Source: a virus. Taken from it: 33,653 nt of DNA. Where the stretch lies: the IMG/VR virus record IMGVR_UViG_3300020159_000733, positions 1-33,653 of that record; one strand, written 5' to 3'. How positions within the stretch are numbered: position 1 is the first letter of the stretch; every line of letters starts with the position of its first letter. The notes under the pieces are model-generated. The model made no database searches. It saw only the letters and a list, made by a program, of their open reading frames with translations, and was not told the origin of the DNA. Made by a program: the position numbers and the translations under genes. Of the stretch, positions 11,833 through 17,405 are shown piece by piece.

Positions 11833-13817
11833 ATGGCATCTGTAACCAAAGTCACCACCTACGACAGCGTTAACGCGATCCGTGAGGATCTCGCGAATTG
11901 ACAGCTTAGCTGATCTCAGTTAGGTCATAGTTCGCTTGTTGTGAACGGCCTGGTGGGGATCATGGAAGACTGGAAACGGGTAGACCGAGAAAAAATGCAA
12001 CAGCTTGTGCAGCAATATCCAGGAACGGCTATCGCCTCTATGTACGGGGTGACATCTGGTGCTGTTTATTTCCGCATGAGGACTTACGGCATACAGCGTG
12101 GAGATCATGTTCGTGGTCCGAAAAAGAGCTTTGACCCTCCGAAAGAGGAATTAGAGCGCGCAATTTCGGAAATGAGCATGGCCAAAATCGCTGAGAGATA
12201 TGGCGTAAGTGAAACCGTTGTGTTTACTCGGTTGAAGCAGCTTGGGATTGAAGGGCCGTCTCGCTCTGAGCGCCTCAAGCGGCATGTTCGAACACCAGAG
12301 CACAACGCCAAGATAGCCGACGCTCTCACAAAGCGTACCGGTGAGTTGGCTAACAACTGGAAGGGCGGAATATCCGCTCGCGACAAGTTGGCTCGTTCGA
12401 ACAGGCAGTATTCTGCATGGAAAATGTCCGTTCTAACTCGGGACGGATTTAAGTGTATCGAGTGTGGCGTCGAGCAGGGCAAAATCTGCCAGTGCTGCGG
12501 AGCGAAAACACTTCTTCACGCGCACCATGTAGTCCCGTTCTCAAAAGCGCCTGAGCTTCGCTATGAAGTTTCAAACGGCGTGTCTCTCTGTGGTCAATGC
12601 CATTGGAAGTCACATCATGGAAAACCGGGTGAATTGCTGGAAACCCCTGAGAGCCATACAGCCACAGCGGAGCCGGTAACGGCAGACGTGAGGGCTTGAA
12701 AATGTATGGATTGGGCAATCAGCAGCCAAGCGTCCAAAGTAGGGTTCTCTCCCCAGAGTGGATGAAGGTTCAACGACTAGGCGGTGACGAAAGAATAATC
12801 CGCCCACGAGCGCCCGGCCCGATTAAAAGGGATGATATAGTCTGGACTCGTCGGAAACGGCGAGAAGCAGTGAATAAACATCGCTGCGGTAACAAATCGG
12901 TGATCTACGATATTTCGCCCGTCGATACTCCGTTCATGTCCAATATTGGCCGCGACACCGCGTCCAACACATACTTCGAGTGGCAGACCGACGCTCTTGC
13001 TTCGGCTGACACAGCGAACTTCGCCGTCGAAGGCGCGGACGCTGGCAACGCAGACTTCGACCCGACGCTTCGTGTCGCCAACTACACCCAGATCAGCACG
13101 AAGGTGATCTCGGTGTCTGGCACCGCCGATGCGACGAACAACGCTGGTATGCGCACTGTTATGGCGTACCAGACGGCGAAGAAGGCTAAGGAGCTGAAGC
13201 GCGACATGGAGGCGATCATCACCTCCAACCAAGCTGGCGCTGCTGGCTCTGGCACCTCGACCGCGCGCAAGACCGCTGGCCTTCCGACGTGGCTCATCAC
13301 CAACTCGCAGGCGAACGGCGCGACCGTTTCTGCGATGTCGGGTGCGGGCGGCAACGGCTATCCTAGCACCGCTTGGACAAACCTCTCGACGGCGACCGAC
13401 GTTGCCTTTACCGAGACGATGCTCAAGACGGCTATCCAGGAAGTCTGGACGGAAGGCGGCGACCCGAAGATCCTCATGGTCAATGCTTACAACAAGACCG
13501 TGGTTTCGGCCTTCGCTGGTCTTGCTGAGCAGCGCATTACGTACAATCGCGCTACGCCCCTGAAGATCATCGCCACGGCTGATATCTACCTTGGCGACTT
13601 CGGTGAAGTGTCGATTGTTCCGAACCGCTTCTCGCCGGGTAACTTCGCGTTCGTCCTCGACCCCGAGTACGCCTCCGTGTCCTACCTCCGCCCCTTCCGT
13701 ACGTACGACATCGCCAAGACCGGCGATTCGGACAAGAAGGAGATGGTGGTGGAATATGGCTTGCGGGTGCGTAGCGAGAAAGCACACGCTGTGGTGGCCA
13801 ACCTCATCGCCTCCTAA
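11833..13817 (+). CDS. Major capsid protein, split by a group I intron (join 11833-11898, 12900-13817)
   Basis: Exon 1 encodes 22 residues (MASVTKVTTYDSVNAIREDLAN), ending at the splice site. Exon 2 begins VIYDISPVDTPFMSNIGRDT and continues for 305 residues. Joined, REDLAN-VIYDISPVDTPF restores the usual N-terminal arm of DUF5309/SU10-type HK97-fold capsid proteins, and the total of 327 residues is normal for the family. Later motifs include YEWQTD-like FEWQTD, GTADATNNAG and FVLDPEYASVSYLRPF. GAGG at 11821-11824 serves the exon 1 ATG. In unspliced RNA, exon 1 is followed directly by TGA at 11899. A long open frame starting at 12696 fuses intron core to exon 2 and is not the real protein: its first 68 residues are intron RNA sequence. 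A terminator follows at 13827. Confidence 0.92.
11899..12899 (+). ncRNA. Group I self-splicing intron in the capsid gene
   Basis: 1001 nt. Exon end GCGAAU (11893-11898) pairs with guide GUUCGC (11930-11935), with the U.G wobble at the 5' splice site. An 8-bp hairpin (11905-11912 / 11917-11924) fills the P1 loop. P4 can be drawn from UUGGGC (12711-12716) and GCCAA (12724-12728), with the familiar GGGCAAUC..GCAGCCAAG sequence. P7 is GACUA (12775-12779, in UUCAACGACUAG) with UAGUC (12838-12842, in GAUAUAGUCU). GGCGG/CCGCC (12780-12784/12800-12804) forms an extra stem. P9 is 12847-12864 with a GAAA loop, and a further stem is 12867-12872/12882-12887. The intron ends in G (12899). Possible P10: GGUCAU (11923-11928) with exon 2 GUGAUC (12900-12905). 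The subgroup is not assigned. Confidence 0.93.
11962..12699 (+). CDS. Intron-encoded HNH homing endonuclease
   Basis: 245 residues. Two helix-turn-helix units lie at about 22-44 (GTAIASMYGVTSGAVYFRMR) and 73-96 (AKIAERYGVSETVVFTRLKQ), followed by NNWKGG (131-136), a DNA-contact element common in phage HNH enzymes. The HNH core has C165/C168 and C176/C179, HAHHVVPFS (186-194), N205 and CGQCH (210-214). It probably cuts intronless alleles of the capsid gene so that the intron copies itself. The ATG at 11962 follows GGTGGGG; a GTG at 11941 would add seven residues. The gene lies between P1 and the catalytic core, and its stop (12697-12699) runs into the likely P3 strand. Confidence 0.9.
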   Translation: MEDWKRVDREKMQQLVQQYPGTAIASMYGVTSGAVYFRMRTYGIQRGDHVRGPKKSFDPPKEELERAISEMSMAKIAERYGVSETVVFTRLKQLGIEGPSRSERLKRHVRTPEHNAKIADALTKRTGELANNWKGGISARDKLARSNRQYSAWKMSVLTRDGFKCIECGVEQGKICQCCGAKTLLHAHHVVPFSKAPELRYEVSNGVSLCGQCHWKSHHGKPGELLETPESHTATAEPVTADVRA

Positions 13818-13860: not shown

Positions 13861-13871
13861 AGGAGGTTGTG

Positions 13872-14336
13872 ATGAGCGTTTGGGAGCGAATTGAAAAGTA
13901 CACAGTGCCTGAGCCCAATAGCGGGTGCTGGCTTTGGATTGGTGCCTGTGCAGCAGACGGATACCCTCGCATCACCATTGGTAGCCTGACTGATAAATCA
14001 AAGAAATCAGTCCGGGTGAACAGGTTCGTATGCCAGGCTTTCCACGGGTTGCCCGATGGGATGCACGCACTACACAAGTGCGACAATGTTATCTGCATTA
14101 ATCCAGACCATATTTATCCTGGAACAGCTAAGCAGAACACGAAAGACTGCATCGAGAGGCAGCGCAGAACGCAGATCAGGAGAGGCGAAGCAAACGCCAT
14201 GTCCGTTTTGAAAACTGAAGACGTGTTGTATATTCGGGAGAGTGAAAAAAGAGGCGTTGACCTTGCGACTAAATATGGCGTCTCACAGGCCACAATATCA
14301 CTGATTCGCAGCCGCAAGCTTTGGAGGCACATTTAA
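13872..14336 (+). CDS. Free-standing HNH endonuclease (HNH_3 type)
   Basis: 154 residues with GCWLWIGACAADGYPR (18-33), a VNRFVCQAFHGLPDG segment where AHR is usual, HKCDN (68-72), CINPDH (75-80) and GTAKQNTKD (84-92). A C-terminal helix-turn-helix (LATKYGVSQATISLIRSRKL) follows. It is the same subfamily as the gene at 249 but clearly diverged. AGGAGG at 13861-13866 lies five bases before ATG 13872; the GTG at 13869 is too close. The gene is wedged between the capsid terminator and the next head gene, whose ATG overlaps its stop (TAATG). It likely homes to the capsid/connector junction. Confidence 0.87.
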   Translation: MSVWERIEKYTVPEPNSGCWLWIGACAADGYPRITIGSLTDKSKKSVRVNRFVCQAFHGLPDGMHALHKCDNVICINPDHIYPGTAKQNTKDCIERQRRTQIRRGEANAMSVLKTEDVLYIRESEKRGVDLATKYGVSQATISLIRSRKLWRHI

Positions 14337-16495: not shown

Positions 16496-16933
16496 ATGCT
16501 TAGCCCTCGCTCAGAACGCAATCTGCAAGGTGTTCACAAGGACCTTGTGAGTGTGGTGCGGCTCGCCGGGAAGCGGGCCGACTTCATCGTGACGGAAGGC
16601 GTCAGGACGATGGGGCGGCAGAAGCAGCTCGTTGCGGCGGGCGCATCTAAGACGCTCAACAGCCGACATCTTACGGGACACGCGATTGATGTTGCTGCGC
16701 TCGTTGATGGCGATGTTCGCTGGGATTGGGAACTTTATGTTGCTATAGCAAACGTAATGAAAGATGCAGCGAAAGAGCTTAAGATACCTGTTGAGTGGGG
16801 GGGTACATGGCGGCTCTTAAATACTGTTGATGGGCCTATCACATCGAAAATGCTCAGTCGTAGTTTTCCAGATGGACCACATTTTCAGTTGCCTTTGTCT
16901 CAATACCCCGCCTCTCAAGGACGCGTCGTATGA
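16496..16933 (+). CDS. Endolysin, M15-type L-Ala-D-Glu/D-Ala peptidase
   Basis: 145 residues with the M15 zinc peptidase layout. SRHLTGHAIDVAA (56-68) supplies zinc ligands H58 and D65; EWGGTW (100-105) and GPHFQL (127-132, H129) complete the site. The opening LSPRSERNLQGVHKDLVSVV is typical of phage endolysins that cut the peptide stem of peptidoglycan. There is no signal peptide, so a holin must release it. The last 80 bases overlap tail-to-tail with an HNH gene on the other strand. Confidence 0.92.
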   Translation: MLSPRSERNLQGVHKDLVSVVRLAGKRADFIVTEGVRTMGRQKQLVAAGASKTLNSRHLTGHAIDVAALVDGDVRWDWELYVAIANVMKDAAKELKIPVEWGGTWRLLNTVDGPITSKMLSRSFPDGPHFQLPLSQYPASQGRVV

Positions 16934-17405
16934 CAGCTCCTATTTCCTTCATCTCATCAAACGTAAACCTGTCTCCTCTGGCGAAGTTGCATGGCGCGCA
17001 AGATGGGACAACGTTCCCCTTTATGTGCGGCAAATCATTGTTTATTCGGTCTAAACCCCTGTTACTCAAGGTGGTGCCGCAATGAGCGCATGGTTGCGTA
17101 ATCAGCTCGACAACTTCAGATACTGTCAGATCGCATTCATCAATGCGCTGATAGGCTTTGCGAAGAAATATAGCTCGCCCTTTCGTCGTTCTGCTGTATT
17201 TTTGGTTTCGCGCCCGCGCCCTCAGTTTTTGTTCGGGAGACATGTTCGACCAGCGTTCACATCGACGATCTCGCCCCTTTTTGCGAGTCGAGTGACAGGG
17301 GCGGCACTCATACGCGATGCCCATAGGTCTGGATTTGTCACCGACAAAATGTTCTTTTGTGGCAGGCTTTTCAATCTTACAGCGGTGACAAGTTCTTGTG
17401 GTCAT
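16854..17405 (-). CDS. Antisense HNH endonuclease
   Basis: 183 residues with three cysteine pairs: TCHRC near the start, YECRPC at about 32-37, and QPCAHCGTT in the HNH core, followed by GLDRINNDLPHIKGNVVPSC and APCNFARGD, the typical zinc-finger HNH fold with the DRIDN-like and NVVP..C..CN parts. It is the only minus-strand gene in the late region. Its last 27 codons lie antisense to the endolysin end, and its start is 16 bases from the GTG of the lipoprotein gene. No good ribosome site precedes ATG 17405. It is a different HNH subtype from the other three. Confidence 0.82.
   Translation of the reverse strand: MTTRTCHRCKIEKPATKEHFVGDKSRPMGIAYECRPCHSTRKKGRDRRCERWSNMSPEQKLRARARNQKYSRTTKGRAIFLRKAYQRIDECDLTVSEVVELITQPCAHCGTTLSNRGLDRINNDLPHIKGNVVPSCAPCNFARGDRFTFDEMKEIGAVIRRVLERRGIETKATENVVHLENYD

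Follow-up and report, generated by a model that had tools for sequence, protein, structure and literature searches.

A group I intron, mobile and probably self-splicing, with an HNH endonuclease gene in the SU10-type major capsid gene of an uncultivated phage

Described phage introns and the locus under study

Introns in capsid genes are already known in a few phages. In the Cluster J mycobacteriophage LittleE, a group I intron interrupts the capsid gene and its splicing has been demonstrated by RT-PCR and by the N-terminus of the protein (PMC3706429); an intron in the capsid subunit gene of the lactococcal phage Tuc2009 is cited in the same publication. Equally, the endonuclease gp210 encoded by an intron of phage Phi-PA3 has been shown to harm a competing phage (PMC11620839). 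The locus considered here is part of a virus record of 33,653 nt (IMGVR_UViG_3300020159_000733 of IMG/VR, positions 1 to 33,653), which in its entire length is called the window and which was compared with relatives on metagenomic contigs. It resembles LittleE in that a group I intron with a homing endonuclease open reading frame (ORF) interrupts the gene for the major capsid protein (PMC3706429). However, LittleE is an actinobacterial phage with an HK97-type capsid and an ORF in the opposite direction related to the LAGLIDADG enzyme I-CreI, whereas the window encodes an SU10-type capsid and an HNH-type ORF on the same strand. Tuc2009, as far as that citation describes it, shares the intron in a capsid gene but is an unrelated phage. 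With Phi-PA3 the window shares a group I intron that encodes an HNH enzyme and sits in a conserved essential gene (PMC11620839); Phi-PA3, though, is a jumbo phage with the intron in an RNA polymerase gene. Similar intron cores are found in Pseudomonas phage LP14, where about 100 nt are 82% identical and lie between the genes annotated as RNAP1 and RNAP2, and in Staphylococcus phage PT1-4, where about 160 nt are 71.5% identical and lie between two pieces of a lysin gene. Since LittleE, with its proven splicing, and Tuc2009 have been described, a capsid intron as such is of a known kind; for the recurrence in SU10-type capsid genes, no report was found in the searchable literature.

Anatomy of the split capsid gene

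The capsid gene starts with ATG at 11833, exon 1 ends with GCGAAT at 11898, an in-frame TGA opens the insert at 11899, and after the last inserted base, G12899, exon 2 begins with GTGATC and extends to the stop codon at 13815–13817 (Table 1). Exon 2 alone matches the Pfam profile PF17236 with 309 bits over positions 18–291 of 292, a near-full match which identifies the gene product as an SU10-type major capsid protein. Joined exons read REDLAN-VIYDISPVDTPF, as do the intronless relatives. The first-pass annotation of this DNA had proposed two capsid pieces of 22 and 305 codons around a 1001-nt insert from TGA to G, with the REDLAN- reading restored by splicing, and all these coordinates and motifs were recovered. 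It had also predicted that intronless capsid genes join at 11898/12900. In the intronless viral contig L005, 65 of the 66 nt of exon 1 are identical and join exon 2 at exactly this position, and the homologous junction is uninterrupted in the 242 relatives scored as intronless, which supports 11898 and 12899 as the borders of the intron. Nine loci initially flagged as interrupted (L191, L194, L196, L210–L212, L216, L267 and L269) are in fact contiguous, the motif test having been too strict.

Table 1. Features of the interrupted capsid locus, in window coordinates
Feature	Position	Strand	Details
Exon 1, major capsid gene	11833–11898	+	22 codons, MASVTKVTTYDSVNAIREDLAN; runs on into exon 2 in L005 and in 242 relatives scored intronless
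P1	11893–11935	+	exon GCGAAU (11893–11898) with guide GUUCGC (11930–11935), U.G at the junction
Group I intron	11899–12899	+	1001 nt; RF00028; empty sites; same-site introns in other contigs
P1 extension hairpin closing the loop	11904–11912/11917–11925	+	
Possible P10 strand	11923–11928	+	GGUCAU, six pairs with exon 2 GUGAUC (12900–12905); read from sequence, weak
Intron ORF, HNH endonuclease	11962–12699	+	245 aa; N-terminal helix-turn-helix segments; C-terminal HNH at about 12487–12618
Core helices P3, P4, P5, P5a, P6, P6a, P7.1	12625–12817	+	P3 is 12625–12631 with 12811–12817
P7	12775–12779/12838–12842	+	GACUA with UAGUC; invariant in nine introns
P7.1	12780–12784/12800–12804	+	
P8	12818–12820/12829–12831	+	covaries
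P9, GAAA loop	12847–12864	+	both-side changes in six of seven pairs
P9.1	12867–12872/12882–12887	+	both-side changes in three of six pairs
Exon 2, major capsid gene	12900–13817	+	305 codons and stop; Pfam PF17236 SU10_MCP, 4.6e-92
Free-standing HNH endonuclease gene, directly after the capsid gene	13869–14336	+	Pfam HNH_3; PHROG 59, 1.1e-26

The Rfam group I model RF00028, proposed as a check by the same annotation, matches 12576–12864 with 76.6 bits (curated threshold 50; E 5.8e-18), and neither another RNA family nor a second intron was found by Rfam within the window, even at E 0.5. P1 folds as had been described (-19.2 kcal/mol, z -3.95, with no shuffle equally good), and the U.G at the junction and the terminal G, by which a group I intron is recognized, are both present. 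Exon and guide covary in a compensatory manner, with GAAU/GUUC in the group of the window versus GGAU/GUCC in divergent same-site introns. Equally, the P7 strands and the P9 with its GAAA loop were located, whereas the suggested P10 held only in part: its six pairs exist in the window, but visual inspection of the divergent same-site introns revealed no equivalent, and P10 is therefore graded as possible only. In an alignment of nine distinct same-site introns, with 56 pairs drawn on the window sequence, standard pairing occurs in 97.5% of cells and both-side changes in 22 of the 56 pairs, including compensatory changes in P3, P5a, P6a and P7.1; none of 500 shuffles scored as high, and versions slid along the alignment were 30–44% paired, a comparison in which drawing the structure on the window sequence favours it over the slid controls. 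Two relatives have a mispair in P5, and the window is the only sequence in which the outer pair of P6b holds. The helices are thus seen to be under selection at the RNA level. Subgroup IA is recognized by extra helices P7.1/P7.2 between P7 and P3; here, one covarying helix (12780–12784/12800–12804) is present.

The intron ORF, which the first-pass annotation left without mention although it is located inside the interval described, matches Pfam PF01844 (6.6e-8), HTH_50 (1.7e-6) and PHROG 8446 (9.4e-25). Its start is most likely ATG 11962, preferred over GTG 11941 because an indel in L087 lies between the two, and its last codons overlap P3–P5a of the ribozyme. With a dN/dS of 0.25 between window and L085 and of 0.12 between window and L087, the endonuclease protein is kept by purifying selection. 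The structure predicted for this protein carries moderate confidence (pLDDT 73, pTM 0.37); the search of the predicted fold against the PDB gave no match at E < 0.001, and the sequence search gave only weak matches to HNH nucleases (5h0m, 0.00084).

Two other readings of the insert have been weighed. Splice sites one base later (11899/12900), resulting in REDLAN-LIYD, would equally preserve the frame and leave a G at the intron end, but would place U-A at the junction instead of the usual U.G and encode leucine at residue 23; as, of the 242 intronless relatives, 228 have V or I at this residue, 241 have one of V, I, A, M, T and F, and a single one has L, the shifted splice is disfavoured and highly improbable. 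That the insert is decayed and does not splice, with the capsid gene broken or restarting inside it, draws on the frame of exon 2 being open back to TTG 12696, which yields a frame of 373 aa (12696–13817). The 68 extra residues are, however, the ribozyme core read as protein, stops interrupt that frame in the same-site introns of L088, L092 and L093, capsid dN/dS stays at about 0.1 among the intron-bearing copies, and the helices are maintained by compensatory changes, which leaves a broken gene scarcely conceivable. It is nearly certain that 11899–12899 is a mobile group I intron that, judged by its anatomy, is probably self-splicing. With one capsid gene in the window, the contig of which is possibly incomplete, it can soundly be argued, as had been claimed, that production of every capsid would depend on splicing.

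Recurrence and mobility of the capsid introns

The same intron is carried by L085, L086 and L087, with ORFs 85–94% identical, and a pattern search recovered additional introns at the homologous position in capsid genes only about 50% identical. Those of L092, L093 and L094 contain HNH ORFs 38–57% identical, while the introns of seven contigs (L088–L090, L095–L097 and L103) lack an ORF and measure 294, 321 or 380 nt; in L101, only the 3' end of the intron is visible. Wherever the start of a same-site intron is visible, its first codon is an in-frame TGA or TAA preceded by T. The remaining pattern matches (L091, L098–L100, L102 and L104) are chance hits to intronless capsid genes with ATATAGTC upstream. 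Two further sites are situated 7–8 codons downstream, amounting to at least three sites within nine codons. The site after the ISP codon is occupied in L012, its parent record L282 and the near-identical L286, and in L280, by introns with a different HNH type; the intron of L276, where exon 1 could be followed no further than IIYN, is probably also located there. After ISPT, introns again with an HNH type that differs from that of the window are present in L232 with its parent L284, in L288 and in L277, and an ORF-less intron in L285. The very similar introns of L277 (about 920 nt, with ORF) and L285 (279 nt, without) represent a natural pair for ORF gain or loss. L279, L281 and L283 were discarded as capsid loci, having no resemblance to capsid genes. 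Introns are rare in this capsid gene: scans driven by the major capsid protein found one in 4 of about 246 testable loci, two of the four being the query loci themselves, and intron counts derive from the best 80 of 600 candidate stretches and are not estimates of prevalence. Among phage records, the capsid match of 298 out of 301 covers at least 80% of the query at one single place, and each of the 60 matches listed out of these 301 is one single piece. The introns recovered here show the SU10-type capsid gene to be a repeated intron target across many uncultivated phages.

Intron and capsid gene are inherited separately. Between window and L085, dS is as low as 0.10 in the intron ORF but as high as 0.59 in the capsid gene, on which ground the intron is considered mobile; overall, the capsid gene of the window is closest to that of the intronless L005 (nucleotide identity 0.867), whereas its intron is closest to that of L085 (0.95). 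L085 and L087 display the reverse pattern, with a dS of 0.35 in the capsid gene and 0.87 in the ORF while the last 300 intron bases are 98–99% identical, and therefore ORF and ribozyme have recombined. Furthermore, L106 and L095, intron carriers in another clade, share GACGGAT followed across the junction by ATCATTTACGATATTTC, in place of GACCGAC followed by ATCATCTATGACATCTC in 12 intronless relatives among the matches listed. Over 21 nt at the start of exon 2, identity is 0.90 between L106 and L095 versus a mean of 0.73 between L106 and intronless copies, and exon 1 ends with GAC in 39 of 43 intronless relatives and with GAT in the carriers L106 and L095. Such silent variants next to the junction fit what would be expected from co-conversion; alternatively, as GAT supplies the U needed for P1, selection for that U could account for it. 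That the intron has persisted at an old site through vertical descent and not through homing might be read from the ORF-less introns of 294–380 nt which several contigs carry at this same position, but the strong discordance of intron and capsid divergence, the mostly intronless close relatives of the carriers and the three separate insertion sites in use speak against it, and this alternative is regarded as unlikely.

Proposed intron cycle, consequences and further genes

A cycle of actual splicing, DNA cleavage and homing can be inferred for the mobile intron. Within the mRNA, the last bases of exon 1 would pair with the P1 guide, P7-bound guanosine would attack after U11898, and exon 1 would be joined to exon 2 after G12899, giving, as the anatomy suggests, a capsid protein of 327 residues. 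Messages left unspliced would be translated only as far as the splice site, since the first intron codon is an in-frame stop. The most likely target of the HNH enzyme is the strongly conserved 5' end of the capsid gene in its intronless form; on repair of the cut, the intron would be copied in, together with short stretches of flanking exon. More tentatively, and rather doubtfully, the intron might be a weapon in competition, the HNH enzyme cutting the capsid gene in co-infecting phages that lack the intron and thereby lowering their virion yield, while the carrier's own gene is shielded by the intron; if so, the three clustered sites would reflect repeated selection on a conserved essential target.

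The main shell gene of a phage can be a recurrent landing place for introns of the self-splicing kind, with three sites in nine codons, two HNH types, and forms with and without ORF. The natural intron-plus and intron-minus capsid alleles are usable to assess splicing cost, homing and competition. Equally, gene callers will assign a wrong start to such capsid genes, as with the 373-aa frame from 12696 in the window.

A gene related to the free-standing HNH gene at 13869–14336 follows the capsid gene in L087, with no match there in L005, L085 and L012; its presence only in the window and L087 among those compared suggests that this locus has received a second mobile element, and the gene is probably an element separate from the intron. 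Elsewhere, the window encodes an HNH_3 protein (249–725, +) as well as a protein resembling endonuclease VII (PHROG 1035; 16854–17405, -), which gives the phage at least four such nuclease-like genes. A tyrosine integrase (PF00589; 27417–28343, -) suggests a temperate phage, and a C5 cytosine DNA methylase (PF00145; 32633–33547, +) is encoded close to the end of the contig.
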